41,098 nt of DNA from a virus: positions 1-41,098 of IMG/VR virus record IMGVR_UViG_3300042301_003737. One strand, 5' to 3'. Of this stretch, positions 6,695 through 31,415 are shown in pieces. Position 1 is the stretch's first letter, and every line of letters begins with the position of its first letter. The translations under genes were made by a program, and so were the position numbers. The notes beneath the pieces are model-generated. The model had not been told where the DNA came from. It saw only the letters and a program-made list of their open reading frames with translations, and did no database searches.

Positions 6695-6700
6695 TATAAT
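6695..6700 (+). promoter_or_regulatory. TATAAT 5 nt before a start codon
   Basis: TATAAT followed by 5 nt and the ATG at 6706, so the transcript should begin at about the start codon. No clear -35. The preceding 6601-6690 is AT-rich with no gene. Confidence 0.6.
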
Positions 6701-6705
6701 TAATC

Positions 6706-6835: not shown

Positions 6836-6873
6836 TATAACGGTTTTATAACAATAGTGGTTTTTCGGGGTAT

Positions 6874-6939: not shown

Positions 6940-6945
6940 ATATAT

Positions 6946-6974
6946 ATAATAACAGCCAATTGGTGGTTTGTCAA
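6946..6974 (-). promoter_or_regulatory. Strong minus-strand promoter TTGACA-17-TATTAT
   Basis: TTGACA (6974-6969), 17-nt spacer, TATTAT (6951-6946). The best -35/-10 pair in the 6.6-7.4 kb region; it lacks the TGTCNG box. It points into the 21-aa ORF. Confidence 0.6.
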
Positions 6975-7054
6975 GAAATAGTGGTTTTGCACTAGCTAGC
7001 ATATATTTCGGGGTACATAGACAATCTCTGATTGCGTAGCTAAAAAACCCCTAA

Positions 7055-7297: not shown

Positions 7298-7302
7298 AGT
7301 CT

Positions 7303-7308
7303 ATTATA
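7303..7308 (-). promoter_or_regulatory. Leaderless promoter of the DUF6171-like gene
   Basis: TATAAT on the minus strand, 5 nt from the ATG at 7297. It is divergent from the rightward promoter at 7441. The 7309-7440 spacer has repeats of GGTTTGT but no gene. Confidence 0.6.
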
Positions 7309-7440
7309 GCGTATACCCTGGAAAAATAACCCAAAAGTTGACATAGGTGGTTTGTTAAAACCATGGTTTGTCAATATGGGGGTTTGGTATCTCTTATATC
7401 ACGCCGAGCTTAATCCGCCGTGCTTTATTTGTAAAAACTT

Positions 7441-7449
7441 TGATATAAT
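7441..7449 (+). promoter_or_regulatory. Extended -10 promoter (TGATATAAT), leaderless
   Basis: TGATATAAT, then exactly 6 nt to the ATG at 7456. No -35 hexamer; the TGN extension probably compensates. Confidence 0.65.
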
Positions 7450-7455
7450 AATAAG

Positions 7456-7743
7456 ATGATATTGGGCATTGAAACCATGGTAATTGAAACTACTGGAACC
7501 GTCGTCGGACTTATAATTGGTTTCTCTACAATCATCACAATTACAGCTGCGGGTGTACGCTGGCTAACAAAACATTATTTCGACGAAATCAAAGCAGAGT
7601 TTAAGCCAAATGGCGGATCTAGTTTAAAAGATCAAGTTAATAGACTCGAAGCTCAACACGGCGAACTTAAATCTAAAGTAGATAAAATTTATGATGTTAT
7701 TGTGGAAAATGGATTAAAGCCTAATTCTAAAAAAACCAAGTAG
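7456..7743 (+). CDS. Holin-like / DUF2746-type membrane protein (95 aa)
   Basis: An N-terminal TM helix (about 12-34, TVVGLIIGFSTIITITAAGV) is followed by FKPNGGSSLKDQVNRLEAQH and a coiled-coil tail ending in Lys-rich NSKKTK. The TM + PNGGSSLKDQV + coiled-coil layout matches small actinophage membrane proteins annotated as holin-like or DUF2746. No lysin is adjacent, so holin function is uncertain; it might instead be a membrane-anchored virion accessory. The start has TATAAT 6 nt upstream and no ribosome site. Confidence 0.7.
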   Translation: MILGIETMVIETTGTVVGLIIGFSTIITITAAGVRWLTKHYFDEIKAEFKPNGGSSLKDQVNRLEAQHGELKSKVDKIYDVIVENGLKPNSKKTK

Positions 7744-7745
7744 TC

Positions 7746-7949
7746 TATATATAATATATATTTAATAAAGTATATTTTGGTATCTAACTAGCTATATATA
7801 TAATATATATTATTATACACATAATTTTTCAAATTTCAACTTTTATACCCTGATTTTTTATAACTCTTTTATAACAATGTTATTCACACTTTATCCACAA
7901 GCCCTACTTCCCTTTTGTTTATTGATTTGTTATTAAAATGTTATGTTAT
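7746..7949. other. Candidate replication origin (AT-rich DUE, DnaA boxes, ATAAC pairs)
   Basis: About 300 nt without a gene. It holds two copies of a 16-nt TA tract (7746-7761, 7795-7810), further AT-rich DNA to 7870, an ATAAC pair at 7860-7864/7871-7875, two perfect DnaA boxes TTATTCACA (7880-7888) and TTATCCACA (7891-7899), and an opposed GTTAT pair at 7929-7933/7940-7944 with a third site at 7945. An easily melted tract beside DnaA boxes and phased repeats is the usual design of a theta origin. Origin function is inference. Confidence 0.45.
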
Positions 7950-7952
7950 AAT
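7944..7952 (+). promoter_or_regulatory. Extended -10 promoter (TGTTATAAT) before a hairpin
   Basis: TGTTATAAT with the hexamer at 7947-7952. The expected start, about 7959, coincides with the first bases of the hairpin at 7958. A TTGATT at 7922 is 19 nt upstream. Confidence 0.55.
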
Positions 7953-7957
7953 TGTTT

Positions 7958-8016
7958 AGGCTAGTGTCTAGGTACCATCTACCCACCCCTCTGCAACCTA
8001 GGCACTAGTCTTTTAT
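7958..8016 (+). ncRNA. Candidate small hairpin RNA (or terminator)
   Basis: Arms 7961-7972 (CTAGTGTCTAGG) and 7997-8008 (CCTAGGCACTAG) pair over 12 positions with one G-U, and 3 more outer pairs (7958-7960 with 8009-8011) extend the stem. A 24-nt loop contains CCCACCCCTCT, which could pair with Shine-Dalgarno-like sequence. TTTTATTG follows. An extended -10 places the transcription start at the stem base, so the unit could encode a transcript of about 55-60 nt. Alternatives: terminator of the 7456-7743 gene, or primer RNA of the adjacent origin. Confidence 0.5.
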
Positions 8017-11106: not shown

Positions 11107-11123
11107 TAAGCGAGGTGAATATT

Positions 11124-12341
11124 TTGGCAACTTCCAATAAAGATTTTAAGATTAAAAATGGTCTTATTGTTGAAGGCGATTCTGCTACCGTAAATGGTTA
11201 TGATGTCTTAACTGTTGCGTCTGACGTGCTAACCTCTGCATCTGTTCTAGATGATTTAGCCAATGTTTACGTTCCAGCTCCTGATGATGGCGACACCCTT
11301 ATTTATGATTTAGAAGCAGAAATTTGGACTACTGCTCCAATTGGTGTAGGACCTACAGGACCAACTGGAGAAACAGGACCTACAGGAGCAACTGGACCCA
11401 CTGGTGCTGGATTTGGAGTTGTCTATCTAGGAAACTATGTTTCAACAAATGGATACCTAACAGATGTAGCAGTAGTTAGAGGCTCAGACGGGCAACTTTA
11501 TCTTGCTAAAGCAAGCGGTGAATTGGGTGACCCAATCAACTATGCAAGTAACGGGCAATGGGAAATCTGGATTCCTAAAGGTGCAGATGGAGCAACAGGC
11601 CCAACTGGAGCTACTGGAGCTTCAGGACCCCAAGGTGAAATTGGTCCTACAGGAGCAACAGGAGCCGATGGATACATAGGTGCTGATGGTGCAACAGGTC
11701 CAACAGGTGCAACTGGAGCTACGGGCCCAACTGGGGAAACTGGACCAACAGGTGCTGATTCTACTGTTCCTGGTCCAACAGGACCAATAGGTGCGACTGG
11801 TCCACAAGGAGATTTAGGGCCCACTGGTCCACAAGGAGATTTAGGACCCACTGGTCCACAAGGAGATTTAGGACCCACTGGTCCACAGGGTGAGACTGGT
11901 CCAACAGGATCAACAGGACCAGATGGAAAATATCTAGAATCTGCTACTGCACCCTCTACACCAGAACTAGGAGATATTTGGTTTAACACTACCACTGGTA
12001 GCACATATATCTATTACGACTCTTACTGGGTTGGTGTTGGAGGCGGAACTGCCTATGGAAACTGGCAAGTAATTAATTCAAACACTACAGCAACTGCCAA
12101 TACTGGATACATTGCAAATACCTCAGCAGGTAGCTTTACACTTATTATGCCAGAAAGTCCAGCAGTTGGAGAAAGTGTTGCTATAATTGATGGAGCTGAA
12201 TCTTTTAAAAGAAATGGTTTGACTATTTCTGGCGGTATAGAGTTAATAGAAGGAAGATCTGATAATCTAATACTAAATGTAGATAGAGCATCAGTTTTAT
12301 TTAGATTCATAGGTTCTACCTATGGTTGGAAGGTTGTATAA
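11124..12341 (+). CDS. Collagen-like tail fibre (405 aa)
   Basis: The TTG at 11124 is chosen because GAGGTG lies at normal spacing and the resulting N-terminus (M/L)[18 protein letters not shown] aligns with the 8889 fibre; a GTG at 11115 overlaps the ribosome site. Two collagen-like tracts (about 78-98 and 155-270) are rich in GPT, GAT, GET and GPQ triplets, with Thr in the third position. Between and after them lie small beta domains; [20 protein letters not shown] recurs in the 15338 fibre. The C-terminus ([15 protein letters not shown]) is a fibre tip. Thr-rich collagen triplets are potential O-glycosylation sites. Confidence 0.85.
11799..11879 (+). repeat. 27-nt tandem repeat in the collagen tract (3 copies)
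   Basis: Three head-to-tail 27-nt units (11799-11825, 11826-11852, 11853-11879) differ by one base; each codes [10 protein letters not shown] partial fourth follows. Near-identity at DNA level shows recent expansion and allows length change by slippage or recombination. Confidence 0.85.
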
Positions 12342-15337: not shown

Positions 15338-16963
15338 ATGACAGTGCTAGATTTTCCAGATTCCCCAGATATTGGCGACAAGTTTATAATCTCAGGCAAA
15401 GCCTGGATTTGGACTGGAACCGTTTGGGAAATTTTCGGATCTGTTTCTAGTGGTCCTCAAGGACCCACGGGAGCAGTGTCAACAGTTCCAGGACCCACAG
15501 GACCAACAGGTTCAGTTGGATTTACTGGACCGACAGGTCCCACTGGCCCCCCTGGTGTAGATGGATCTGGTATCTCTATTCTTGGAACTTTAGCAAACTC
15601 TAGTTTGTTGCCAGATCCAGGGGTAAACATTAACGATGCTTACCTGATTGGTGGAGACTTATATATTTGGGATGGAACTGACTGGAACAACGTTGGACAA
15701 ATTCAAGGACCGACAGGACCCACTGGTCCCACAGGAGTAAGAGGTGACGATTCTACTGTTCCTGGTCCCACAGGTCCCACTGGACCCACAGGAGCCACGG
15801 GAGGAGCTGGACTAGGATATGCTGGTATAACCTTTACTCTTTCTTCGTATTCGTCTTCTACGGCTTCTGGAACGGTAAACAAAGTTGATGCACTAGTCGT
15901 TGGATCACCAGTAAGAATCGTTTCACCATCAAACCCATTAATCTTTGCAGACGGACTAGTATTTTCTATCACTGGAACAATCGTAGATATAACTGTTTTA
16001 GTTGACAATACTGGTGGAACTCTAGCAAGTATTACATCTCCAATGCCGCTTAGCATTGCTGGTGTTCGTGGAGCTACTGGACCTACAGGAAATACTGGAG
16101 CTACAGGACCAACCCGCTCTACTGATATTTCTACCACACCACCAAGCTCACCAGCACTAGGAGACCTTTGGTATAACTCAGAAACAGGACAGACTTTTGT
16201 TTACTATGATTCTTATTGGGTTGAGAATGTTTCAGGTATTGCAGGACCAACAGGTGCTACGGGTGCAGGAGTTCCAACTGGAGGAGCTTCGGGCCAAGTT
16301 TTAGCTAAGTCTAGCTCTACAAACTATGATGCTGGGTGGATAGACATTTACACTCCAGCACAAACAGACACTGCTATTTCTACAGCTGTTTCAAATCTTG
16401 TAGATTCTGCCCCAACCCTTTTGAATACTTTAAACGAGCTTTCTGCAGCCTTAAACGATGACCCTAATTTTTCTACTACGGTAGCAACTGCTCTAGCAGC
16501 ACTGGTTCCAGCAGGAACAATTAGTCAAACGGCTAGAGCAACAGCACCAACTGGTTATTTAATTTGCGACGGTACTGCAATATCAAGAACAACATATTCT
16601 ACACTGTTTGATGCAATTGGAACAGCCTATGGAGTTGGAGATAATTCCACTACCTTTAATATTCCAAACCTTAAGGGTAGAGTTCCTGTAGGTAGAGATA
16701 GTGCTCAAACTGAATTTGATACTCTTGGAGAAGTGGGTGGAGCAAAGACGCACACCCTAACTACTGCTGAAATGCCTAGTCACACCCACGATACAAAACC
16801 ATATAACACAGCAGGATCTGCCGCATACGCAGCTAGCAACCTGTTTATTTCTAACGGAGACAACGTAGTCGGTAATGGTGGTGCTACTACTGCTACTGGT
16901 GGCGGTGGAGCACACAATAACTTACAGCCATATGTAGTGCTTAACTATATGATTAAGGTATAA
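15338..16963 (+). CDS. Collagen-like fibre with tail-collar domain (541 aa)
   Basis: The N-terminal anchor FPDSPDIGDKFIISGKAWIW (5-24) is shared with the 16971 gene. Collagen tracts of GPTGPTG type lie at about 40-75 and 125-155. DLWYNSETGQTFVYYDSYWV matches the 11124 fibre. The C-terminal ~150 residues form a phage tail-collar domain: PTGYLICDGTAISRTTYSTL, NIPNLKGRVPVG, AEMPSHTHDT, ending LQPYVVLNYMIKV. Such domains cap T4 gp12-like and other short fibres. Likely an adhesion fibre. Confidence 0.9.
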   Translation: MTVLDFPDSPDIGDKFIISGKAWIWTGTVWEIFGSVSSGPQGPTGAVSTVPGPTGPTGSVGFTGPTGPTGPPGVDGSGISILGTLANSSLLPDPGVNINDAYLIGGDLYIWDGTDWNNVGQIQGPTGPTGPTGVRGDDSTVPGPTGPTGPTGATGGAGLGYAGITFTLSSYSSSTASGTVNKVDALVVGSPVRIVSPSNPLIFADGLVFSITGTIVDITVLVDNTGGTLASITSPMPLSIAGVRGATGPTGNTGATGPTRSTDISTTPPSSPALGDLWYNSETGQTFVYYDSYWVENVSGIAGPTGATGAGVPTGGASGQVLAKSSSTNYDAGWIDIYTPAQTDTAISTAVSNLVDSAPTLLNTLNELSAALNDDPNFSTTVATALAALVPAGTISQTARATAPTGYLICDGTAISRTTYSTLFDAIGTAYGVGDNSTTFNIPNLKGRVPVGRDSAQTEFDTLGEVGGAKTHTLTTAEMPSHTHDTKPYNTAGSAAYAASNLFISNGDNVVGNGGATTATGGGGAHNNLQPYVVLNYMIKV

Positions 16964-16970: not shown

Positions 16971-17390
16971 ATGTCAGCAATCAATTTTCCAGACTCCCCC
17001 ACCTTAAACGATGAGTTTTCTGTTGGTGGAAGAACTTGGAAGTGGACAGGAGTCTTTTGGGAGTTTGTTGGTATTGGGTCAACATTAGTAATAGTTGAAA
17101 AAACTGCTTCTTATTCTTTAGTCCTATCAGATAAAGACAAACTAGTTGAGATGAATTCTTCAGGTGCAAACAATCTTACAGTACCTCTCAATTCTTCACA
17201 AGCATTTCCAATAGGAAGCCAAATTAACATTTTACAGACTGGAACTGGGCAGACAACAATAGTTCCAGTAAGTGGCGGGGTAACCATAAATGCAACACCA
17301 GGACTTAAACTAAGAGCACAATGGTCTTCTGCTACCCTGATTAAAAGAGCTGAAAATGTTTGGGTGCTAGCAGGAGATCTAGTACTATGA
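16971..17390 (+). CDS. Short fibre protein (139 aa)
   Basis: The anchor FPDSPTLNDEFSVGGRTWKW matches the start of the 15338 fibre. The C-terminal ~95 residues (TASYSLVLSDKDKLVEMNSS to TPGLKLRAQWSSATLIKRAE) match the C-terminus of the 30123-31415 fibre. It is thus anchor plus tip without a collagen stalk, i.e. a minimal fibre. It overlaps the next gene as ATGA. Confidence 0.75.
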   Translation: MSAINFPDSPTLNDEFSVGGRTWKWTGVFWEFVGIGSTLVIVEKTASYSLVLSDKDKLVEMNSSGANNLTVPLNSSQAFPIGSQINILQTGTGQTTIVPVSGGVTINATPGLKLRAQWSSATLIKRAENVWVLAGDLVL

Positions 17391-19048
17391 GAAAAGCATT
17401 TGTAGGTAGATTTTCGGCAGCTGTAAGAAAAATATTTAAAGACATTTTTTCTTCCAGAGCCAACACCACGGGATCTTTAGGCACAGCTAGTGACGGCAGT
17501 CAGTGGGAAGCCGTATCAAAAGTAATTGAAGTTCAAGATGGTAAAGCTGTAGCAAACTACGTACCCCAGCCATCTGATGACGGTAGCGAATATCCAATTG
17601 CAGTTATAAATCTTCCTACACAAAATAACATTATTACTCTAGAAGATACAGACGTAGGTTCTGGAGTAGCTTTGTGGGTGCAAACAAGTGCTGACTGGTG
17701 GATGGTATCCATTGATTCAGCATACAACACAATTCCAGCAGGTACAAACTATACCTCTGCCCCAGCAACCTTTAGTGGTCAAGCAAACTATTCTGTAGAA
17801 ACAACTTACACTTCTTTAGCGGGATCATTTACTGCTGGTCAAGAATATACGTCTACGCCAAGCTATTCAATCCTAACCGCAGAGTATTCTTCTGGAGTAA
17901 CTAGCTACTTTGCTGGAGATACAAACTATACATCTTCTATGGATAACTTTTCATCCACACCAAACTTTACCTCTAGCACTCCTTTCACTAGTCTCCAACC
18001 ATTTAGCTCTGCCCAGGTTTTTTCTAGAGCTACAGCGTATACAACTGCACCTGTTTGGTTTAGTAATATTGATGCCTATTCTACTGCTACATCATGGACC
18101 CTATCAGAAACTTGGAACAGGTGGTCTCCATATACAAGAAATATATCCTACTATGGAGTATCTAATTTTTATCGATCTAGAAACTGGACTCAATCATCAA
18201 ACTTTTGGAGAGCCTATACAAGAAGAAACATTGCTCCTATAGCATACACTGGATCTGCCTGGTTTCGTGCATATCAAAATGTTTGGACCTCAACCTTATC
18301 CAACTTCTGGACTGCAGCTAGTACCTGGTTTTCAACACCTGGAAGCGTTTGGTCCAGACAAGACTTTTGGAATTTAGCTCAAAACTGGTGGAGTAATCTT
18401 GACGGCACTTATGCAGCCATATCCTACACACCAGGCACAGTTTGGTCACAGGGACCAACAACATATACACCATCACCACAAACCTATACTTCAGGAACAA
18501 CGGCGTACACTGTTGGAGCAGAAACCTACACATCTCAATTATTTTATACTAGTCAGGGAGGAACATTCTCTTCAGCACTTGCTTTTACTTCTGTGACCCC
18601 ATTTAGCTCGGCCACTCCATATTCAAGTGCCACAGTCTTTTCTTCTTCTACAAATTATTTTGCAAGTCTTGTTTTTTCTTCTCTAACAACATATACAGAA
18701 GGATCTAGCTATACATCTGCAATTTCCTATACATCAGCTGCTTTCCCAGAAAGCTTTTCTTATGTAGCCATGCTAAAGATTTCTCAATCAATTAGTGATA
18801 CTGTGTCAGAAATTTCTTCGTTGGTAGTATCTACTGCACAAACAATTAAATCTATTATTGTTCAAACCTCTGGAAATGAGATTACAGCTAAAGCCTTTTC
18901 GGAAGTGACCCCCATAACTCAGCTAGGAGAAGACTTGATTTATAATGCCACTGGTGCTATAATAAATACAAGATATGGGATATCAATATCAAAAGCAGAA
19001 TACAGTAACAATGAAATTGGAAGCTCAGTAACAATAGAAAGATCATAG
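17387..19048 (+). CDS. Aromatic/Ser-Thr hexapeptide-repeat virion protein (553 aa)
   Basis: The start at 17387 has AGGAG upstream and overlaps the previous stop. Residues 1-20 are basic. Residues 25-115 form a beta domain (GSLGTASDGSQWEAVSKVIE, ALWVQTSADWWMVS) typical of phage tail proteins. From about 120 to 450 the chain is built of 6-7-residue units starting with an aromatic plus Ser/Thr (NYTSAP, TFSGQA, FTSSTP, FSSAQV, YTTAPV), with a Trp/Arg-rich middle (TWNRWSPYTRNI, NFWRAYTRRN). The C-terminal ~95 residues are again a normal tail domain. No Cys. Probably an extended beta-solenoid or glycosylated adhesive segment; fold unknown. Confidence 0.8.
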   Translation: MRKAFVGRFSAAVRKIFKDIFSSRANTTGSLGTASDGSQWEAVSKVIEVQDGKAVANYVPQPSDDGSEYPIAVINLPTQNNIITLEDTDVGSGVALWVQTSADWWMVSIDSAYNTIPAGTNYTSAPATFSGQANYSVETTYTSLAGSFTAGQEYTSTPSYSILTAEYSSGVTSYFAGDTNYTSSMDNFSSTPNFTSSTPFTSLQPFSSAQVFSRATAYTTAPVWFSNIDAYSTATSWTLSETWNRWSPYTRNISYYGVSNFYRSRNWTQSSNFWRAYTRRNIAPIAYTGSAWFRAYQNVWTSTLSNFWTAASTWFSTPGSVWSRQDFWNLAQNWWSNLDGTYAAISYTPGTVWSQGPTTYTPSPQTYTSGTTAYTVGAETYTSQLFYTSQGGTFSSALAFTSVTPFSSATPYSSATVFSSSTNYFASLVFSSLTTYTEGSSYTSAISYTSAAFPESFSYVAMLKISQSISDTVSEISSLVVSTAQTIKSIIVQTSGNEITAKAFSEVTPITQLGEDLIYNATGAIINTRYGISISKAEYSNNEIGSSVTIERS

Positions 19049-19049: not shown

Positions 19050-19739
19050 GTGAATATAATAAGATTTTTTTCACAGAAACAATATATGGGTTTGGGCCAA
19101 CCTCAACCAGCAAAAAAGTTTTTGCCAAAGTGGTATAAAGACTCTGAAACGGTAACCATCGACGAGCAGGGTAACGAGCATTCTGGTTTAAAAAGATGCA
19201 TACCATTTTTAGACTCAATGATTAGTGGATACATGCTAGTCACACCAGTAGACATTTTTATTTCAAAAAATGAAGACGGATCTTTAAATATTAGGTGGAA
19301 TTCTATAGAAGATTTACAGGATTTTATAGCCGAAAGAGGAAAAGATCTTGGGGAAAAGATTCCAAGACCAGCTGGTCACTACCCGAACCACTTAGCATTT
19401 AGAGGTTTTTGGGGTATGAAAACTCCAAGGGGCTGGAGTATGCTTGTGGTTCAGCCACTGAATAGGTTCGATCTTCCATGGACTATTACCTCTGGTATAA
19501 TGGATACAGACAAATATTCAACTAGCGGAAACGTTCCATTTTTTGTTAGAGAAGATTTTGAGGGGATGGTTCCAGCAGGCACACCGTTTGCACAACTATT
19601 ACCAATAAAAAGAAAATCTTGGAAATCTATTCATAATGACCAGGGTATTGTTTATTTAGACACACTACAAGGTAATACTGTAAGAAGTCCAGGAAAAAGT
19701 TATAAGAAGTTGTTTTGGATAAGAAAAGACTATAGCTAA
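19050..19739 (+). CDS. DUF6065-like protein, copy 1 (229 aa)
   Basis: GTG start one nt after the previous stop. Key blocks: LPKWYKDSE near 25, LKRCIPFLDSMISGYMLVTP near 47-66, GWSMLVVQPLNRFDLPWT near 130, GIMDTDKYS, FFVREDFEGMVPAGTPFAQL near 170. These match the 'CPPFxDxMxxGY ... PPGYSxLxxxPxNR ... DTDxY ... GxxPxGTPxAQxxP' pattern I associate with DUF6065. Function is unknown; the family often occurs in phages and beside sugar or capsule genes. First of two paralogues in the carbohydrate cassette. Confidence 0.75.
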   Translation: MNIIRFFSQKQYMGLGQPQPAKKFLPKWYKDSETVTIDEQGNEHSGLKRCIPFLDSMISGYMLVTPVDIFISKNEDGSLNIRWNSIEDLQDFIAERGKDLGEKIPRPAGHYPNHLAFRGFWGMKTPRGWSMLVVQPLNRFDLPWTITSGIMDTDKYSTSGNVPFFVREDFEGMVPAGTPFAQLLPIKRKSWKSIHNDQGIVYLDTLQGNTVRSPGKSYKKLFWIRKDYS

Positions 19740-19740
19740 T

Positions 19741-20121
19741 ATGAGAAAAAAAACAAAAAAAGAAATTTATGAAGGATTATTAAGCGAACACAGACCAACA
19801 ATCAGAAGTTTTTTGCTAGAAATTTTAATGATAAAACTTTTTAACCTACAAAAAGGAAAACAACCAGTAATTCCAGAGGGTGCAAAATGGTCTCCAGAAG
19901 AAGATAGATTAAAAGATCTCCCTTTGCAGTATATAGCACTAATAAATAAAGAAAATATTGTCGTTGAGCTAATAAGAATAAACGAAGAAACAGCGGCACA
20001 AATTCTAAGCAAAGACGTAAAAATGGTTTCTTTTAATCCTAAAACTCAAATTGTAAAAAAGGGAATGTGGTACAATAAAAGAAAGTTTTACTCAGAGGTG
20101 CAAAATGAAAAAGAAGATTAA
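19741..20121 (+). CDS. Hypothetical protein between the DUF6065-like genes (126 aa)
   Basis: Very Lys-rich N-terminus (MRKKTKKEIYEGLLSEHRPT), an amphipathic helix, then a small beta region (QYIALINKENIVVELIRINE) and KGMWYNKRKFYSEV. The 'ALINxxNIVVELIRINEE' segment resembles the short N-terminal beta domain of many phage virion-associated proteins. Overlaps the next gene by 17 nt. No function assigned. Confidence 0.7.
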   Translation: MRKKTKKEIYEGLLSEHRPTIRSFLLEILMIKLFNLQKGKQPVIPEGAKWSPEEDRLKDLPLQYIALINKENIVVELIRINEETAAQILSKDVKMVSFNPKTQIVKKGMWYNKRKFYSEVQNEKED

Positions 20122-20758
20122 TTTTAGATCAATTCATCCAGACCTAGATATTCCACATCCAGTTCCAGCATACAAGGCTATTCCAGAGTGGTATAGAACA
20201 ACCAAGCCAATTGTAAATGGTGGAGAAACCTTAAAAAAGTGTGTTCCAATTCTAGACTCTATGACCGCAGGATACTCCTTAACGCTTTCAGCAGATGTAT
20301 TTTTTAACAAAGGAATTGTTCAAGATATATCTGTTAACAAGGTAGTTCAGTCTCATGTGGATGGCCAAATGGGAGACTTGAAAATTCCAACAGAATATTA
20401 CAAGACCGTTTATAAGTGGATAAATTCCTTTACATTAAAAACTCCAAAAGGATACAGCACATTATTTGTTCATCCAGTTAATAGGGTTGATTTGCCATTC
20501 TATAGCTTTACTGGTCTAGTAGATACAGACAAGTTTCCTCTAGAAGTAAACTTTCCATTTTTGATTAAAAAAGACTTTGTAGGCATTATTCCAGCAGGAA
20601 CCCCAATTGCTCAAGCAATACCATTTAAAAGAGAAGACTGGTCCTCAAGTGTTGAAGACTCTTTAAGTTATCAGCGTCCAGCCTTTACAGCTACCATGCA
20701 TAATCCCCCATTCAATTATTACAAGAGACATTTTTGGACAAGAAAGAAGTATTCTTAA
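20105..20758 (+). CDS. DUF6065-like protein, copy 2 (217 aa)
   Basis: GAGGTG precedes the ATG. It repeats the blocks of copy 1 in order: IPEWYRTTK, LKKCVPILDSMTAGYSLTLS, GYSTLFVHPVNRVDLPFYSF, VDTDKFP, FLIKKDFVGIIPAGTPIAQA, then a C-terminal KRHFWTRKKYS like the KKLFWIRKDYS of copy 1. Clear paralogue, diverged at DNA level. Conserved Cys, Asp and Asn-Arg positions suggest a shared active or binding site. Confidence 0.75.
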   Translation: MKKKINFRSIHPDLDIPHPVPAYKAIPEWYRTTKPIVNGGETLKKCVPILDSMTAGYSLTLSADVFFNKGIVQDISVNKVVQSHVDGQMGDLKIPTEYYKTVYKWINSFTLKTPKGYSTLFVHPVNRVDLPFYSFTGLVDTDKFPLEVNFPFLIKKDFVGIIPAGTPIAQAIPFKREDWSSSVEDSLSYQRPAFTATMHNPPFNYYKRHFWTRKKYS

Positions 20759-21096
20759 TGGCAAAAAATAAAAAAAGAGTTTGTGGAGAGTGTCCAGAGT
20801 GTAACCTAGGACCAAAAACTTTTTGCTTTTGGCAAATGGAAAAAGCTGTCCCAGAACACTTCAAGCCGTCCTTAATAGGAGCTTACATCTCTATAGAAGA
20901 TGTAAATGGTTTAGGATATCTTCAAGCCTTCGAGATTGAAAAACCTTTTGATCCAGAGTTTTTGTCGTGGTTCTTATCTTTTTGTGTTGGTAATAGGATT
21001 AATGTTTTTTGGAAAACAAAAAATATTCCGTTTTGCTTAGGGAGTCCAGAGTTTATCGAAACTATGACTAGATTCATACAAGAAGATGGCTCATGA
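20758..21096 (+). CDS. Cys-containing hypothetical protein (112 aa)
   Basis: Start at 20758 as a TAATG overlap with the previous stop; an earlier in-frame ATG lies inside the upstream gene. Begins MAKNKKRVCGECPECNLGPK, with CxxCxxC and a later Cys (KTFCFW) that could bind metal. The rest is alpha/beta with aromatic patches (FDPEFLSWFLSFCVGNRINV). Overlaps the GT61 gene start by 4 nt. Position suggests a role with DUF6065 or the glycosyltransferases; family unknown. Confidence 0.7.
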   Translation: MAKNKKRVCGECPECNLGPKTFCFWQMEKAVPEHFKPSLIGAYISIEDVNGLGYLQAFEIEKPFDPEFLSWFLSFCVGNRINVFWKTKNIPFCLGSPEFIETMTRFIQEDGS

Positions 21097-22187
21097 AAAT
21101 AAAAAATCCACTAAGCTTTTTCTTAAGACAAAGAAAAAATATTGTAAAAACAATAGAAATGTCCGACATAGAACAGTACGACAGACTAGAATATTATGAG
21201 GGTGTATACACAGTAAGAAATATTGTTGCCGAAACAAGTGACGATTTGTTTTATTTTTTTCCAGGCGAAAACATGATTTCTGGATATATAGACTCAAATT
21301 CAACAAACACTTTAAATGTTTTGGGTAACAGTAAAAAGCTAGTAGTATCTATGGTTAATAGCTTTTACCATTCATTGCTAGACAATATATCAGAAATAAT
21401 CTATGCAATAGAGTCATATCCAAAGCACGAACTAATTCTTGATATTAGTGAAATGAAAGACGCTCTAACAGTAGAGACTCCTCAAGGTTTTATGTATCAT
21501 AATGTATTTTTATATTTTTTAGAAAGTTTAAAAATGAAAAAAATAAAATACAGAATAGTTAATTTAAAAAAACACGACATTATCTATATAAATAATTTTA
21601 GAATAATTCATTACGACTTGGAGTCAATCAGAAAAGCAAGCTTAGTTTATGAATTTTTCAAGGAAAGAGTTTCTAATCCAAAAGCTAAACCAACCAGAAA
21701 AGTGTTTATTAGTAGAGCATTAACATCTGGAAGGGAATACGATGCTCCAACATTGTCATGTTCTAATGACAATAGAATTGACGATCATAAAAAACTAGAT
21801 GATTTTTTTTCGTCAATGGGATATGAAATTATAACTACCGAACATCTTAGCTCGTTTCAAGAACAGCTGGATCTTTTTTATGAAACAAAAGTTGTAGCAT
21901 CAATAACTGGATCAGGTTTAGCTAATGCTGCGTTTATGCAACCCAACCAAACACTTATTGAGATCATAACTCCGCTAGTGGTTCCAGTGGGTGTTCCTGG
22001 ACGTGCAAAAGATATAACAGATCCATATTATACTCAAGAACTTCATAACTTTTATAAAAACTTGGCATTCTACAAGGACCACACATATTTTGGAATTCAC
22101 AATAATGAAAGAAGCTTTGAAGCCTTAAAAGAAACAATTCAAAACGATCCCAAGATTAAAAACTTTTTGGATAGGTCAGATGAATAA
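21093..22187 (+). CDS. GT61-family glycosyltransferase, copy 1 (364 aa)
   Basis: Diagnostic DUF563/GT61 blocks: NSFYHSLLDNISEI (89-102), RKVFISR (202-208), GYEIITTEHLSSFQEQLDLF (about 243-262) and ITGSGLANAAFMQPNQTLIE (271-290). GT61 enzymes (plant beta-1,2-XylT, animal EOGT) transfer a sugar from a nucleotide donor to protein-linked glycans or Ser/Thr. Length is normal. No TM or signal, so cytoplasmic, acting during phage assembly. Donor and acceptor cannot be read from sequence; the neighbouring fibres are the likely acceptors. Overlaps the next gene by 8 nt. Confidence 0.88.
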   Translation: MKIKNPLSFFLRQRKNIVKTIEMSDIEQYDRLEYYEGVYTVRNIVAETSDDLFYFFPGENMISGYIDSNSTNTLNVLGNSKKLVVSMVNSFYHSLLDNISEIIYAIESYPKHELILDISEMKDALTVETPQGFMYHNVFLYFLESLKMKKIKYRIVNLKKHDIIYINNFRIIHYDLESIRKASLVYEFFKERVSNPKAKPTRKVFISRALTSGREYDAPTLSCSNDNRIDDHKKLDDFFSSMGYEIITTEHLSSFQEQLDLFYETKVVASITGSGLANAAFMQPNQTLIEIITPLVVPVGVPGRAKDITDPYYTQELHNFYKNLAFYKDHTYFGIHNNERSFEALKETIQNDPKIKNFLDRSDE

Positions 22188-23532
22188 TGCATTTATTTTT
22201 GATCTAGACGGGGTATTAATAGATAGCAAAGAGATTCACTTTAACTCTCTAAACCTTGCACTGTCAGAGATAGATGAAAGATATGTAATTTCTAAAGAGG
22301 AGCAGGCCAATACATTTGAAGGGCTTAGTACAAAAGCAAAGCTAGATATTATTTCATACTCCAAAGGATTGCCTAAAGAGCTTCATAATGTTATCTGGGA
22401 AAAGAAACAGATTTATTCATCAGAAATGTTTCAGGTGTTTGATAAAGACCAAGAGTTAGTAGACTTATTTAAACTTATAAAATCATTCAATATTAAAATT
22501 GGTGTTGCTAGTAATGCCATAAGGGAAACCGTTGTTGGATCCTTAAAGAGTCTAGGAGTTTATGGACTTATAGATTATGCTCTTAGTAATGAAGATGTTT
22601 CTAACCCAAAACCAAATCCAGAAATTTATAAAACAATGATGTCATTGCTGGGATCTTCTTCAGAAACAACAATAATTTTTGAAGACAGCGAAATAGGCCA
22701 AGCAGCAGCAAAGGCATCCTTGGCAAAGCTGTTTCCAGTAACAGAAAGAAAAGATATCAACCTTTCTTATATCTCTAAGGCCATAGAAGCTTTGACACCC
22801 AATAGTTTTCCAAACATACTCATACCAATGGCTGGAAACGGTTCTAGATTTTTTAATGCTGGATATAAAGATCCAAAGCCACTAATTGATGTTGACGGAA
22901 AGCCTATGATTCAGAGGGTAATTGAAAACATTGCAATTCCTGGAAACTATATTTTTATTGTTCAGGCTGAGCATTATAAAAAGTATAGTCTTGAAATTGC
23001 ACTTACAAAACTTATCCCAGGATGTAAAATTATACAGGTAGATGGAGTAACTGACGGTGCAGCAAGAACAGCATTGCTAGCAAAACAGTATATAGATAAC
23101 CAAAGACCACTAATAATTGCAAACTCTGATCAACTCTTAGACTGGGATAGTTCAGAGTTTATTTCTCAATTACTTGAGATTGGAGCTGATGGAAATATGG
23201 CCCTATTCCTAGCTAATGAAGATAAATGGTCTTATGCAAAAATTAAAAATAATAGGATTATAGAGGTAGCTGAAAAAGTAGTAATTAGTAATAATGCCAG
23301 CACTGGGGTCTACGGATGGTCTAAAGGCTCTGACTACGTAAGATACGCAGAACAGATGATTGAAAAAAATATCAGGGTAAATAATGAATTCTATATATGC
23401 CCAGTATATAATGAAGCAATTCAAGATAACAAAAGAATTTTGCCAATGTTTGTAGAAACTATGTATGGCCTAGGAACTCCAGAAGACCTAGAAAAGTTTT
23501 TGTCGCAAAAACATAGTGATATAATTAAATAG
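22180..23532 (+). CDS. HAD phosphatase fused to sugar nucleotidyltransferase (450 aa)
   Basis: Residues 1-195 are a HAD-IA (beta-phosphoglucomutase-like) domain: nucleophile motif FDLDGVLIDS (Asp8/Asp10), IGVASNAIR (motif II), NPKPNPEIY (Lys), IIFEDSEIG (motif IV). Residues 205-450 are a nucleotidyltransferase: NILIPMAGNGSRFFNAGYKD with G-x-G-S-R, then PKPLIDVDGKPMI and a metal-site block ANSDQLLDWD. The fusion could remove or move a phosphate on a sugar and then activate a sugar-phosphate to an NDP-sugar, supplying the adjacent glycosyltransferases. Exact sugar unknown. Confidence 0.88.
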   Translation: MNNAFIFDLDGVLIDSKEIHFNSLNLALSEIDERYVISKEEQANTFEGLSTKAKLDIISYSKGLPKELHNVIWEKKQIYSSEMFQVFDKDQELVDLFKLIKSFNIKIGVASNAIRETVVGSLKSLGVYGLIDYALSNEDVSNPKPNPEIYKTMMSLLGSSSETTIIFEDSEIGQAAAKASLAKLFPVTERKDINLSYISKAIEALTPNSFPNILIPMAGNGSRFFNAGYKDPKPLIDVDGKPMIQRVIENIAIPGNYIFIVQAEHYKKYSLEIALTKLIPGCKIIQVDGVTDGAARTALLAKQYIDNQRPLIIANSDQLLDWDSSEFISQLLEIGADGNMALFLANEDKWSYAKIKNNRIIEVAEKVVISNNASTGVYGWSKGSDYVRYAEQMIEKNIRVNNEFYICPVYNEAIQDNKRILPMFVETMYGLGTPEDLEKFLSQKHSDIIK

Positions 23533-23585
23533 TATGGGAAAACACAACCCCCTAAAACCCTAAAAGAAAGGCTATTAGAAAAATA

Positions 23586-24530
23586 ATGTTATGTAATAGA
23601 CTAGAAAAGACTGGTGAAATTCACCATATAGAGTTTAACACGATGGGTTCTTTTTGCGATTTTCAGCCTGGAAGGTCTCCAGAAGGATCCAACTCTATAG
23701 ATTTTTTAGAAGATGGTAAGACCTATGTAATCATGGAAGATAGATCAAACTATCATCACTTTCTTATAAACCTGATGATGCCAGCACTAACAGCAATAGA
23801 CGAGCTTAATAATGAAGATCTACACTTTGTTTTATTTGACCTTGGTGTTGGTGCATTGCCCGTTGATGCATTGCCCGAAGGTGTATTGCCCACTGAAGAA
23901 CAAAACTTTGATAAACTGCTTGTAGAGCTTTTGCAAGAAAAAGGAATGAACTACTCAGAGGTAAAAAGCTCTGATTTTGACTATATAAATGCAAAAAACT
24001 TTATTCCAATAAATGGGGCAGATGTTGAAGCTGGAATTCCACTTTTGTACAACTATTTATTAGATAAGTATAATTTAGTTGAAGAAACACCAAGCAGAAA
24101 AATATACATTAGCAGAAAGAATTTTGTAAGTAGAGATGTTAGGATCGATAACGAAGAAGCTATAGAAAATTATTTTATAGAAAAAGGATTTGAAATAGTT
24201 TATCCAGAAAACATAGCTAGCTTTAAAGAACAGTTTGAACTTCTTAACTCGTGCTCTACCCTTGCAGCACTATCTGGCTCTGGACTAACAGGTTTACTAT
24301 TTATGCAAGAAAACCAAGAAGTTATTGAAATAGTTTCAGAACTAATGGTTGGATCTACAACCGAAGATGATGGAACCACAACCTTTAATTATGGCATTCA
24401 CGATCACTATAAAGAGTTTTCTTCTTTTAAAAAACACAAATATCTCAGTGTTTTAAATATGGAAAAACAAGCAGAACTAGTTAAAGCTAGGCTTGATGAG
24501 TTTGTTTTTTCTTCAGAGCAAAACTCTTAG
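23586..24530 (+). CDS. GT61-family glycosyltransferase, copy 2 (314 aa)
   Basis: Blocks in GT61 order: DRSNYHHFLINLMMPAL (about 53-69), SRKIYISRK (about 170-178), GFEIVYPENIASFKEQFELL (about 200-219), ALSGSGLTGLLFMQENQEVI (about 227-246). Slightly short, with a reduced N-terminus. A three-unit pentapeptide repeat (GALPV, DALPE, GVLPT) is inserted near residue 89. It follows a 53-nt gap with no promoter seen. Likely a second transferase of the same glycan pathway. Confidence 0.85.
   Translation: MLCNRLEKTGEIHHIEFNTMGSFCDFQPGRSPEGSNSIDFLEDGKTYVIMEDRSNYHHFLINLMMPALTAIDELNNEDLHFVLFDLGVGALPVDALPEGVLPTEEQNFDKLLVELLQEKGMNYSEVKSSDFDYINAKNFIPINGADVEAGIPLLYNYLLDKYNLVEETPSRKIYISRKNFVSRDVRIDNEEAIENYFIEKGFEIVYPENIASFKEQFELLNSCSTLAALSGSGLTGLLFMQENQEVIEIVSELMVGSTTEDDGTTTFNYGIHDHYKEFSSFKKHKYLSVLNMEKQAELVKARLDEFVFSSEQNS
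23850..23891 (+). repeat. 15-nt tandem repeat inside GT61 copy 2
   Basis: Units at 23850-23864, 23865-23879 and a partial 23880-23891 share RNTGYATTGCCC and stay in frame. It encodes an Ala/Val-Leu-Pro pentapeptide loop absent from the other two GT61 copies. Confidence 0.7.
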
Positions 24531-24539
24531 TGCTATAAT
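24531..24539 (+). promoter_or_regulatory. Extended -10 promoter (TGCTATAAT), leaderless
   Basis: TGCTATAAT with the hexamer at 24534-24539, exactly 6 nt from the ATG at 24546. It abuts the stop of GT61 copy 2. Confidence 0.65.
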
Positions 24540-24545
24540 TAACAG

Positions 24546-24983
24546 ATGTTAAAAATATCTCATAGAGGAAACCTTAAAGGACCATCTTCAAGAGAAAATC
24601 ACCCAACATATATAGAAGAAGCAATTTATGCTGGTTTTGAAGTAGAGGTTGATATTCGATTGATAGATAATCAACTTTGGCTGGGACACGACGAAGCTCA
24701 ATACCTAACGTCTAAGACCTTTCTTGATAGATATAAAAACAGTCTATGGGTTCATTGCAAAAACTTAGAAGCATTAGAATACTTTGTTGGTTTAAAGCAA
24801 GACTACAAGTATTTCTGGCATGAAGAAGATAGTTATACCCTAACAAGCAATGGATTAATCTGGACTTATCCAGGAAAACCAATTACGAATAAGTCTATAC
24901 TTGTTATTAATGGTCAAGAGCCATTGCCAGACCCTACTAAGGTATTTGGGATCTGCAGCGATTACGTAAAAATATTAAAATAG
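24546..24983 (+). CDS. GDPD-like protein, short form (145 aa)
   Basis: Reads MLKISHRGNLKGPSSRENHP, then GFEVEVDIRLIDNQLWLGHD. The HRG, ExD and GHD motifs match the catalytic N-terminal half of glycerophosphodiester phosphodiesterases (TIM barrel, metal-dependent). Usual GDPD length is about 230-300 aa; here the second half is much shortened. It may be a minimal phage variant that cleaves a phosphodiester (lipid or teichoic-acid-like), or may have lost activity. Small proteins of this type occur beside glycan genes in phages and capsule loci. Confidence 0.7.
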   Translation: MLKISHRGNLKGPSSRENHPTYIEEAIYAGFEVEVDIRLIDNQLWLGHDEAQYLTSKTFLDRYKNSLWVHCKNLEALEYFVGLKQDYKYFWHEEDSYTLTSNGLIWTYPGKPITNKSILVINGQEPLPDPTKVFGICSDYVKILK

Positions 24984-25010
24984 GCTGTAGACATAGTGAC
25001 CTTTTTAAGG

Positions 25011-25016
25011 TATAAT
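25011..25016 (+). promoter_or_regulatory. TATAAT 6 nt before the ATG at 25023
   Basis: AAGGTATAAT then 6 nt to ATG, the same AAGGTATAAT context as at 16955-16964. No TGN extension and no -35. Confidence 0.6.
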
Positions 25017-25022
25017 GTGTTT

Positions 25023-25178
25023 ATGAGAATCATCAAAATGATAAAGTCTGCAATATGTCAGCTAAAAGGCCATGAGCTCACAGTAGCTCAATGCCCAGTA
25101 ACAAGGTTTAAATCTAAAACTTGTAACGTATGTCAAATAAAATTTGGTCCAGAGCATAAGGGAGCCAGCTTTTCGTAA
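25023..25178 (+). CDS. DUF1660-like small zinc protein (51 aa)
   Basis: Start at 25023 (MRIIKMIKSAICQLKGHELT) rather than the upstream in-frame codons, because TATAAT is 6 nt before it. ICQLKGHE...CPVTR...CNVCQIKFG gives Cys/His (GH) and CxxC ligands similar to prophage DUF1660 proteins. A short stem (AGCTTTT 25167-25173/AAAAGCT 25184-25190) overlaps the stop. Basic; function unknown. Confidence 0.65.
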   Translation: MRIIKMIKSAICQLKGHELTVAQCPVTRFKSKTCNVCQIKFGPEHKGASFS

Positions 25179-25202
25179 AACATAAAAGCTGTTTGATTAA
25201 AT

Positions 25203-26198
25203 ATGACAAGTAATAAATACGACTTTTATCATATTCATGATAAAAAAGATTTTGCCGTTCACATAAATGAAAAGGTTTTGTTTTCAAAAGATAATTTTTC
25301 TAAAGAGGTAAGAGTTGTAGACTCTTACTTAGATCCATTTAAAGGAGATAGTTTAAAAGACACAGATCCAGTTAAAGAAATAATAAATGAAAACTTTAAA
25401 GGTTTGGTGCAAATCCCCAACAGCTATTTTCACTATTTCTCAGACTTCATTGGGATAGTTTTTGTATTTTTAGAAAACTGTATAAAATCTAATATTAAAA
25501 AAGTAGAGCTTGTATTGGTTGAGTTACAAAAAAATCAAGAAACTGTAAAAGAGTTTCAGGCATTTTTTGAGCACTGCATGAAACAGTTTGAGGACAGAAT
25601 TGAGATTTCTTGGACAACCATAAACGAGGCTAACACTGGGGCGTCCTTGCTTGAAAGCTACATTCGAGTCAATAACTCTACAGTAATTGAACAACAAAAC
25701 ATAGGAATTTCTCTAGACTTTATTTATGATAGTGCAAAAAGCTTTGCAGGCTTATCAGAAGATTCTATACCAAATAAAAAAGTTTTTTTATCTAGGGAAA
25801 AAGACATAAACAAAGATAGGGCAGAAAATAGACATATCTACGAAAAAGATGCAGAAGATCTTTTTAGGTCACTAGGATTTGAGGTTGTCAATGGCGAGTC
25901 TTTTAAAAGCCTTAAAGAGCAGATAAAGTTTTTTGATCAGGTTAGCGTTTTTGCAGGATATACTGGATCAGGACTAACAAGTTCAATGTTTATGAAACCA
26001 GGACAAACCATAATAGAAATCGTTTGTCCAATAAAATTTGGAACGTGTGCAAATGATAACGGAGATGAGTGGGAAATTCATAATTTTTATAAAACATATT
26101 CAATACTAAAAAACCACACATACGTAGCTATTCCAAACATTGATAGAAGCAAGGAAAGCTTTTTACAAGAGCTTGAAAAAGTATCAAGGATGATTTAG
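25203..26198 (+). CDS. GT61-family glycosyltransferase, copy 3 (331 aa)
   Basis: Blocks in GT61 order: NSYFHYFSDFIGIVFVFLEN (about 74-93), NKKVFLSREKD (about 193-203), GFEVVNGESFKSLKEQIKFF (about 224-243), AGYTGSGLTSSMFMKPGQTI (about 250-269). Copies 2 and 3 share a C-terminal HxxYKxxSxxKxHxY-type segment near the end, also in copy 1 (HNFYKNLAFYKDHTYF). Likely adds a further sugar. It ends directly against the GT2 gene. Confidence 0.87.
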   Translation: MTSNKYDFYHIHDKKDFAVHINEKVLFSKDNFSKEVRVVDSYLDPFKGDSLKDTDPVKEIINENFKGLVQIPNSYFHYFSDFIGIVFVFLENCIKSNIKKVELVLVELQKNQETVKEFQAFFEHCMKQFEDRIEISWTTINEANTGASLLESYIRVNNSTVIEQQNIGISLDFIYDSAKSFAGLSEDSIPNKKVFLSREKDINKDRAENRHIYEKDAEDLFRSLGFEVVNGESFKSLKEQIKFFDQVSVFAGYTGSGLTSSMFMKPGQTIIEIVCPIKFGTCANDNGDEWEIHNFYKTYSILKNHTYVAIPNIDRSKESFLQELEKVSRMI

Positions 26199-27281
26199 TT
26201 GCCAAATAAAGATAAAGTAAAAGTTGCAATATATACTATTGCCCTAAACGAAGAGCAGTTTGTAGAAAGATGGTATGAGTCAGCTAAAGATGCTGACTAC
26301 CTATTGATTGCAGACACAGGCTCTACAGATTCTACGGTAGCCAAAGCAGAAGCACTTGGTATTAACGTTATAAAAATATCAATTAATCCATGGAGATTTG
26401 ATGATGCTCGTAATGCATCTCTTTCAGTTATTCCCTCAGATATTGACTATTGTATTGCTCTTGATATGGACGAGGTTATTATTCCTGGCTGGCGTAAAGA
26501 ATTAGAAAAGGCTTTAACAGATGAAGTAACTCGTCCTAGATATAAATACACTTGGTCGTGGAATTCTGACGGTACACCAGGATTACAATATGGTGCAGAC
26601 AAAATACATGCTCGTAAAGGATATCGCTGGAAGCATCCAGTTCATGAAGTAATAGCTTCAGATAGACTGCAAGAAAAGCAGGGGTGGTATGACATAGAAA
26701 TTCATCACTATCCAGACTCTACTAAATCACGTGGACAATACCTTCCACTACTAAAACTATCTACAATAGAAGATCCAAACGATGATAGGAACGCATATTA
26801 CTATGCACGTGAGCTGTATTTTAATAAAAAGTTTGAAGAGGCTGCCAAAGAGTTTTTACGTCATTTGTCATTGCCAACGGCTACATGGTCTGCTGAGAGA
26901 GCAGCTTCTTATAGGTATCTAGCTAAGTGTAATCCACAAAAAGCCAAGGAATATCTCTTAAAGGCTATAGAAGAAGATCCAAATAGGAGAGAGCCAAAAG
27001 TAGAGCTTGCAAACCATGCTTATCTTAAAAAAGATTGGAACCTGTGTTATACTCAATCTTTAGAGGCTTTGGCAATAAAAGAAAAACCACTAGATTATCT
27101 TTGCGAAGACTTTGCTTGGAAAGACCTGCCTCATGACCTAGCTTCTATATCTGCCTGGAATCTTGAGAAAAAGCAAGAAGCAATTGATCAGGTTATTCTA
27201 GCAATTAGCCACAATCCCAATAGCGATAGGCTAAATAAAAATTTAGAATTTTATAACAAACAGACTGATTTGTATAATTAA
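26199..27281 (+). CDS. GT2 glycosyltransferase with C-terminal TPR (360 aa)
   Basis: TTG start right after the previous stop. GT2 (GT-A) features: IYTIALNEEQFVERW (11-25), ADTGSTDST (38-46), FDDARNASL (67-75), metal-binding DMD (89-91) in ALDMDEVI, and GYRWKHPVHEVI (about 141-152). From about 190 on, the helical repeats YYYARELYFNKKFEEAAKEF and LLKAIEEDPNRREPKVELAN are TPR-like. This WaaE/KdtX-like layout with TPR is typical of phage and capsule transferases; the TPR may hold the protein acceptor. Probably the initiating or branching enzyme of the cassette. Confidence 0.9.
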   Translation: MPNKDKVKVAIYTIALNEEQFVERWYESAKDADYLLIADTGSTDSTVAKAEALGINVIKISINPWRFDDARNASLSVIPSDIDYCIALDMDEVIIPGWRKELEKALTDEVTRPRYKYTWSWNSDGTPGLQYGADKIHARKGYRWKHPVHEVIASDRLQEKQGWYDIEIHHYPDSTKSRGQYLPLLKLSTIEDPNDDRNAYYYARELYFNKKFEEAAKEFLRHLSLPTATWSAERAASYRYLAKCNPQKAKEYLLKAIEEDPNRREPKVELANHAYLKKDWNLCYTQSLEALAIKEKPLDYLCEDFAWKDLPHDLASISAWNLEKKQEAIDQVILAISHNPNSDRLNKNLEFYNKQTDLYN

Positions 27282-30122: not shown

Positions 30123-31415
30123 ATGGCAACCACTTCAAATTATCAACTACCCTTTCCAGAACCATCTGACCCAGTAAATGTTGCTGAAGACATTGAGCTA
30201 TTAGCTAAAAAAATAGATAGCTCTCTTGGAGAAATTGTTCAAGATACCGTTGGAGGAATGGTTAGCTCAAATACAGAAAACGGAATTTCTGTAACCTACA
30301 ATGATGATCTTGGAAAACTAAACTTTAACGTTACTGTAATTCCTGCTCAAACTGAAAATGAAGGAAAGTACTTAAGTACTAATGGCACTAGTGTGAGCTG
30401 GGAAGAGGTAGATGCCCTTCCTGATCAAACAGGCAACACTGGAAAGTTTCTAACTACTGATGGTGTAGACGCAACTTGGGAAACAGTAGATGCTTTACCA
30501 GATCAAACTGATAATGAAGGAAAGTTTTTAACTACTGATGGAACAGATGCAAGCTGGATAACAGGACCACTAGGACCTACAGGTCCAGCAGGTTTAGGTA
30601 TAACTTGGCGAGGAAACTGGGTTACAGGACCAGGAGATCCAGCATCAATTACTTACGCAATTAATGATGCGGTAAGCTGGAACAACAAGTCTTGGATTGC
30701 AATTGCTCCAAGTAATGGATTCGATACTCCACCAGACAGTAATTACTCAGACTGGAATCTTCTTGCAGATAGTGGAAATCAAGGACCAACTGGACCTGCT
30801 GGAGATACAGGACCCACAGGCCCAGCAGGTGCAGATTCAACCGTTCCTGGACCAACAGGCCCAACAGGGCCAGGATTTACCTTTAGGGGAAATTTTTCAG
30901 AGGGAGTAACATATTACAAAGGTGACGTAGTAAACGGACCAGTCGACAACAACTTATATGTTTTTTATTGGGGAACTACTACTACAACTTTTGGTAGCGA
31001 ATGGATGCTTTTTCTTTCAGAAGGCCCAACAGGACCATCAGGTGGACCAACTGGTCCACAGGGACCTACTGGACCTACAGGTGCAACAGGACCACAAGGT
31101 GATCCTACACTTATAGTTCAAACCGCAAAAACTGGAGCATATACATTAGCGTCTGGCGATCAGGGTGCGTTAATACAACTTAATGGTACATTTACTGTTA
31201 GTGTGCCAACTGATGCAACATTTAACTTTGCAATTGGTACACAGATTAACTTGTTGAATATTGCATCTGGAGTTATTACCGTTGCACCAGCTACTCCAGG
31301 AACAACAGTCCTTAATGGAACACCTGGACTAAAGCTTCGTGCTCAGTGGTCATCAGCAACACTAATTAAGCTTGCATCAAACACTTGGGTTATTGTGGGT
31401 GACCTTACACCGTGA
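30123..31415 (+). CDS. Collagen-like tail fibre (430 aa)
   Basis: The N-terminal anchor YQLPFPEPSDPVNVAEDIEL is a third anchor type. Three copies of a short repeat (NEGKYLSTNGTSVSW, NTGKFLTTDGVDATW, NEGKFLTTDGTDASW, residues about 80-147) precede collagen tracts GPTGPAG near 150, 220-245 and 300-330. The C-terminal ~95 residues (TPGLKLRAQWSSATLIKLAS) match the 16971 protein. Thr-rich collagen triplets again. Likely a trimeric fibre. Confidence 0.85.
   Translation: MATTSNYQLPFPEPSDPVNVAEDIELLAKKIDSSLGEIVQDTVGGMVSSNTENGISVTYNDDLGKLNFNVTVIPAQTENEGKYLSTNGTSVSWEEVDALPDQTGNTGKFLTTDGVDATWETVDALPDQTDNEGKFLTTDGTDASWITGPLGPTGPAGLGITWRGNWVTGPGDPASITYAINDAVSWNNKSWIAIAPSNGFDTPPDSNYSDWNLLADSGNQGPTGPAGDTGPTGPAGADSTVPGPTGPTGPGFTFRGNFSEGVTYYKGDVVNGPVDNNLYVFYWGTTTTTFGSEWMLFLSEGPTGPSGGPTGPQGPTGPTGATGPQGDPTLIVQTAKTGAYTLASGDQGALIQLNGTFTVSVPTDATFNFAIGTQINLLNIASGVITVAPATPGTTVLNGTPGLKLRAQWSSATLIKLASNTWVIVGDLTP

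Follow-up and report, generated by a model that had tools for sequence, protein, structure and literature searches.

The glycosyltransferase SgtA of C. difficile, a 358-amino-acid protein with a GT-A domain and tetratricopeptide repeats (TPR), is encoded directly upstream of bclA3 and transfers beta-O-linked N-acetylglucosamine (GlcNAc) in vitro onto the threonines of GPT collagen peptides (PMC7157674). Among viruses, Mimivirus L230 acts as both a lysyl hydroxylase and a glucosyltransferase on hydroxylysine (PMC9614988), and mycobacteriophages, according to two articles that cite the original work (Freeman et al. 2023, via PMC11256854 and PMC12619734), encode glycosyltransferases and carry glycans on capsid and tail-tube subunits. 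Full-text searches of an open-access library found no description of collagen glycosylation in phages. Here, we analyze a 41,098-nucleotide stretch of DNA from a freshwater phage (IMG/VR record IMGVR_UViG_3300042301_003737, hereafter the window), in which positions 19050 to 27281 encode two DUF6065-like proteins, three GT61 glycosyltransferases, a HAD phosphatase-sugar nucleotidyltransferase fusion (HAD-NTP), a short GDPD-like protein, and a GT2 glycosyltransferase with TPR (GT2-TPR). A first-pass annotation had read this 8-kb block as a single carbohydrate cassette with which the phage might glycosylate its own collagen-like fibers. The proposal is supported for GT2-TPR, which tracks threonine-rich collagens and has an SgtA-like architecture, whereas it is no more than plausible for the middle of the cassette and wrong for its left end.

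GT2-TPR matches PF00535 above the cutoff (E = 2e-8) and phrog_13126 (E = 8e-113), and single TPR matches are weak. When a profile built from 46 relatives was compared with the Protein Data Bank (PDB), the glycosyltransferase part matched GmaR (E = 5e-12) and SunS (E = 2e-10), and the C-terminal part gave clear matches to TPR proteins. At least 95% of 59 relatives keep the acidic donor motif (D89/D91/E92), and other catalytic-type residues are conserved as well. GmaR, the flagellin GlcNAc transferase of Listeria, and SunS, a prophage peptide glycosyltransferase, thus share a GT2-type domain with GT2-TPR at significant profile similarity; both modify proteins or peptides, and GmaR also has TPR, although their acceptors differ from the one proposed here and GmaR carries an additional antirepressor part. 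Modification of phage DNA has been suggested as one possible role for glycosyltransferases in cultured Nanopelagicales phages (PMC10202952), but it is hardly credible for the present transferases, since these nearest solved relatives act on proteins or peptides and DNA glycosylation would not predict the adjacency to collagen genes described below.

The closest likeness is to SgtA and BclA3. Both transferases are ~360 amino acids long and combine a GT-A domain with C-terminal TPR, threonine is the proposed acceptor here as well, and relatives of GT2-TPR adjoin genes with GPT-rich collagen repeats. The two systems differ in that a phage tail fiber here takes the place of the spore coat and that the window phage has an extra GT61/HAD-NTP/GDPD module. 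By analogy, we infer that GT2-TPR carries out the reaction of SgtA, the transfer of O-GlcNAc onto collagen threonine. As with Mimivirus L230, a virus-encoded enzyme would then modify viral collagen-like proteins, although no hydroxylase domain is present here and the proposed acceptor is threonine rather than hydroxylysine. As in the mycobacteriophages, insofar as the citing articles describe them, virion proteins would be glycosylated, but on collagen-like fibers and by an SgtA kind of enzyme instead of on capsid and tail-tube subunits.

To place these genes in context, we collected relatives of each main window gene and read their gene neighborhoods. A collagen open reading frame (ORF) was present in the stretch at 25 of 29 distinct viral GT2-TPR loci and directly adjoined GT2-TPR at 18 of the 29, compared to 4.8 expected from the other genes of the same stretches. 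Collagen calling returned 125 of 2755 ORFs, versus 13 in residue shuffles. For HAD-NTP, by comparison, collagen was found in the stretch at 5 of 61 distinct loci and adjoined the gene at none. After 60% clustering, collagen lay within 5 kb of GT2-TPR in 9 of 11 viral clusters, the exceptions being a 5-kb fragment and a jumbo phage. Actinomycetia phage DSL-LC01 encodes several collagen fibers together with a GT2-TPR protein that is 58% identical to that of the window and its best match among named phages. Homologs were also found in 15 of the 392 Bacillota genomes searched, with collagen beside or near the gene in 9 of the 15; on a Peribacillus plasmid, exosporium protein C and a collagen-like gene are followed by a GT2-TPR homolog (45% identity).

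The association also extends to the residue that would be modified. The three collagen tracts of the window, noted in the first-pass annotation for threonine in the third (Y) position of their triplets, have it in 50 of 85, and the median fraction of Y positions occupied by threonine is 0.62 in GT2-TPR loci versus 0.19 for collagens without GT2-TPR. In a sample assembled from the collagen side, viral contigs were scanned with a G-P-x repeat pattern whose third residue was left free, giving 105 collagen loci. GT2-TPR was within reach of 9 of the 32 collagens with at least half threonine at Y, compared to 2 of the 73 below that level (P = 0.0003); the flanks in this sample are short, hence the low rates of detection. 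Among phages sharing the Ser/Thr-rich protein and DUF6065-like module that precedes the GT61 genes, or its DUF6065-like part, L084, L158, L183, L092, and L093 have both GT2-TPR and collagen, and the records of L159, L160, and L161 have neither; a sister phage, L162, has a collagen without GT2-TPR, and its Y positions are mostly glutamine. As a separate observation in these collagen-first loci (L232 to L351), 7 of 27 neighbors of threonine-rich phage collagens without GT2-TPR are 2OG-Fe(II) oxygenases, members of the prolyl-hydroxylase superfamily, versus 2 of 26 for threonine-poor collagens.

The GT61/HAD-NTP/GDPD module presents a different picture. All three GT61 proteins exceed the PF04577 cutoff (56 to 68 bits versus 27), and copies 2 and 3 are 27 to 29% identical to copy 1; GT61_2 is among the fastest-changing genes of the module (62 to 66% identity in close relatives, ratio of nonsynonymous to synonymous substitution [dN/dS] of ~0.2). 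Their supposed kinship to the Ser/Thr glycosyltransferase EOGT proved weak: judged by motif position rather than structural superposition, each copy retains the catalytic-site His and both Arg of the N-R-R UDP triad of EOGT and POMGNT2, but has Ser in place of the triad Asn three positions ahead of that His. The HAD-NTP fusion matches HAD_2 (E = 2e-25), phrog_3980 (E = 2e-67), and PDB entry 4evw (E = 2e-20), its nucleotidyltransferase half reaching only a weak NTP_transf_3 score (22.4 bits, under the cutoff). The GDPD-like protein, named for an HRG..E..E-x-D..HD pattern spotted by eye, has no Pfam match and belongs to a phrog family without an assigned function; neither it nor the GT61 proteins matched PDB sequences. 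Apart from a subcutoff RmlA match in the nucleotidyltransferase half, no rhamnose or anthrose biosynthesis gene was found among the Pfam and NCBIfam matches of the cassette proteins, which distinguishes the block from the BclA-type glycan operon of the Bacillus exosporium.

HAD-NTP and the GDPD-like gene form a tight pair in aquatic phages (L004 to L083 and relatives): at 51 of 59 distinct loci, the window's own relatives counted, the two are at most four genes apart. In Synechococcus phages such as S-CAM9, the fusion is ~50% identical to that of the window and a GDPD-like gene is close by, but the clusters contain other transferases and nucleotide-sugar genes and no adjoining collagen. GT61, HAD-NTP, and GDPD also occur together in unrelated phages (L147 to L152) whose records have no collagen match, a kind of distribution that the first-pass annotation had named as counting against its reading, and at two related sites (L092 and L093) a PF11397 GlcNAc transferase replaces the GT61 module between the DUF6065-like pair and GT2-TPR. 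Given its presence in unrelated phages and this replacement, the module is exchangeable. One of the unrelated clusters, GT61-GT61-nucleotidyltransferase-GDPD, includes a RuBisCO-like protein (L149:12573-13811; PF00016, E = 6e-42); genes for a tryptophan halogenase and a carbamoyltransferase lie close to it.

These distributions bear on what the module does. It could alter host surface glycans, leading to superinfection exclusion or receptor change, with GT2-TPR alone acting on fibers and the module sitting amid fiber genes merely because host-recognition regions collect such genes. The collagen-free phages and the cyanophage-like glycan clusters, in which HAD-NTP and GDPD accompany varying transferases, are consistent with this explanation, and the authors of a pelagiphage study interpret such genes as modifying the O chain (PMC7029224). 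We nonetheless consider it rather unlikely, as the module is embedded in tail genes, with overlaps between start and stop codons, no cassette gene has a Pfam match to a polyprenyl-phosphate transferase, flippase, or polymerase, and the related site bears a PF11397-type GlcNAc transferase instead. Extension of a fiber glycan by the GT61 module is the preferred and a plausible role, with host-surface modification as its main rival.

Several observations weigh against the collagen-directed role proposed for GT2-TPR and its neighbors. The comparison with SgtA is one of architecture and gene context rather than of aligned sequence. In the window, GT2-TPR does not itself adjoin a collagen gene, as GT61_3 lies upstream and the nearest collagen fiber is the fifth gene downstream; the GT61/HAD-NTP/GDPD module has no collagen association outside the window; and locus L142, a 23-kb fragment without a collagen match, has GT2-TPR ~9 kb from the GT61 module. 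When only low-GC contigs are considered, which provide few cases, the threonine association loses significance (P = 0.2), and many threonine-rich collagens (23 of 32, with short flanks) have no GT2-TPR within reach. Finally, jumbo-phage homologs of GT2-TPR (27 to 33% identity) lie near tail, Ig-like, and DNA ligase genes and lack collagen. This last arrangement would also suit an enzyme acting on another virion protein, such as the Ser/Thr-rich protein, an Ig-like protein, or other fibers, with collagen a mere late-region neighbor, and in the window, L158, and L183, GT2-TPR indeed has the DUF6065-like pair and the Ser/Thr-rich protein close by. Such an acceptor seems improbable, however, because collagen adjoins GT2-TPR in numerous settings where the Ser/Thr-rich protein is missing, Bacillota outside phages included, and because the presence of GT2-TPR correlates with threonine at position Y.

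The first-pass annotation had also pointed to the Ser/Thr-rich protein. Its composition was confirmed (31% Ser plus Thr overall and 36% in the repeat insert), but the Ser/Thr fraction is 0.36 to 0.38 where the GT61 module is present versus 0.38 to 0.40 in relatives without it (L158 to L160), and we rejected Ser/Thr richness as a sign of a GT61 substrate. The insert has an aromatic residue every 6 to 7 residues over ~350 residues (z = 7.8 at lag 6) and varies widely in length among relatives (120 to 346 residues); a structure model of the protein was unusable (mean predicted local distance difference test [pLDDT] of 38). The DUF6065-like proteins score below the PF19541 cutoff (14.7 and 14.2 versus 26.6 bits), and the AlphaFold2 model of member b (pLDDT of 91) has dUTPases as its top PDB matches (best E = 2e-4), so this pair was discarded as sugar genes on the fold of the modeled member. 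Both this pair and the Ser/Thr-rich protein are also found where the GT61 module is absent. Relatives of phrog_7084 are found in haloarchaeal HF1/HF2-type viruses near tail genes.

All of the cassette genes named in the first-pass annotation are present between tail genes, as judged by Pfam and phrog profile matches; it had overlooked two small genes (19741-20121 and 20734-21096) and the promoter-like site and 51-codon ORF in the gap at 24983-25203 (Table 1).

Table 1. Features of the window and of related loci; positions are window coordinates unless a locus is named
Feature	Position	Strand	Evidence or remark
Collagen-like tail fiber, proposed acceptor	11115..12341	+	45 G-X-Y triplets, third-position Thr in 26
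Collagen-like tail fiber, proposed acceptor	15338..16963	+	26 triplets, third-position Thr in 17
Ser/Thr-rich structural protein	17360..19048 (ATG start possible at 17387)	+	Conserved ends, variable insert
DUF6065-like protein a	19050..19739	+	phrog_7084, E = 1e-38; 38% identical to copy b
Small protein accompanying DUF6065-like pair	19741..20121	+	79-80% identity in close relatives, 33-52% in several more distant
DUF6065-like protein b, dUTPase-like fold	20105..20758	+	phrog_7084, E = 4e-41
Small phrog_9155-like protein between DUF6065b and GT61_1	20734..21096	+	
GT61 glycosyltransferase 1	21093..22187	+	PF04577, E = 2.6e-16; 78-83% identity in close relatives
HAD phosphatase-sugar nucleotidyltransferase fusion, proposed maker of NDP-activated sugar or polyol	22180..23532	+	
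GT61 glycosyltransferase 2	23586..24530	+	PF04577, E = 1.4e-18
Short GDPD-like protein, constant HAD-NTP partner	24546..24983	+	phrog_34507, E = 2e-29
Conserved promoter-like site, TAGACA-17-TATAAT	24988..25016	+	11/12 consensus matches
51-codon ORF (ATG to stop), Cys-x-x-Cys	25026..25178 (ATG position uncertain by a few bases)	+	Conserved in 5 contigs
GT61 glycosyltransferase 3	25203..26198	+	PF04577, E = 7e-15
GT2-TPR protein, 360 amino acids, proposed SgtA-type Thr O-glycosyltransferase of collagen-like fibers	26199..27281	+	PF00535, phrog_13126, family collagen adjacency
Collagen-like tail fiber, proposed acceptor	30123..31415	+	14 triplets, third-position Thr in 7
PF11397 GlcNAc transferase at GT61-module site	L092:1726-2685; L093:8776-9765		

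The promoter-like site is alignable in five contigs, with a -10 element of TATAAT in four and TACAAT in one; matches of the 11/12 type are no commoner than in shuffles. Its -10 element ends a few nucleotides before the 51-codon ORF (also listed as 24996-25178 from an upstream GTG), a spacing that would suit a leaderless transcript beginning before GT61_3 and GT2-TPR. The site would drive GT61_3, GT2-TPR, and perhaps the downstream fibers.

The virus record is a 41-kb fragment with 38.8% GC. The ORFs listed between 8043 and 40124 are nearly all on the plus strand and mostly structural, and small ORFs are dense in positions 1 to 8000, where few exceed 80 codons on either strand. The order from the Ser/Thr-rich protein to GT61_3 is kept in at least six other contigs, as far as each extends, and is thus no assembly artifact; the fiber genes on either side differ among these relatives, and the genes of the block are under purifying selection (dN/dS mostly 0.05 to 0.27). 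Since the portal protein shares 47% identity with the portals of Streptomyces phages and GT2-TPR is closest, among named phages, to that of DSL-LC01, the host is likely actinobacterial. In DSL-LC01, a tryptophan halogenase gene directly adjoins the GT2-TPR gene near the collagen fiber cluster (L129:26149-28793). Megablast against named phages, an Rfam scan, and a tRNA search returned no match for the window.

Taken together, these results lead us to reject one indivisible cassette, as its parts occur separately, and the block probably comprises three modules: an SgtA-type collagen O-glycosyltransferase, an exchangeable glycan module, and a structural module unrelated to sugars. The sugar that the GT-A domain of GT2-TPR would transfer onto threonine in the G-P-T or G-A-T triplets of the collagen-like fibers, while the TPR part holds the acceptor, is most likely GlcNAc, drawn from the host UDP-GlcNAc pool. 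HAD-NTP, the GDPD-like protein, and the three GT61 proteins may supply a sugar or polyol in activated form and, as the most plausible role in this phage, extend or cap the fiber glycan, with the Ser/Thr-rich protein and the dUTPase-fold pair forming a neighboring structural module devoid of sugar enzymes. More tentatively, and on balance less likely than not, phage collagen fibers may widely be O-glycoproteins in which an SgtA-type enzyme starts the glycan on Y-position threonine and swapped modules (GT61, HAD-NTP, and GDPD, or PF11397) vary the outer sugars.

Glycosylation of virions and of collagens is already known; the tie between an SgtA-like enzyme and threonine-rich phage collagens suggests a system that extends beyond this window. 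Phage collagen-like fibers are common and are regarded as bare protein. If the proposed activity is correct, phage-made glycans would be involved in adsorption, fiber stability, and recognition of the phage; GT2-TPR would serve as a sequence marker of glycosylated fibers; and the threonine-rich Y positions of many phage collagens would be explained, with one enzyme family joining phage fibers to the collagens of spore surfaces.

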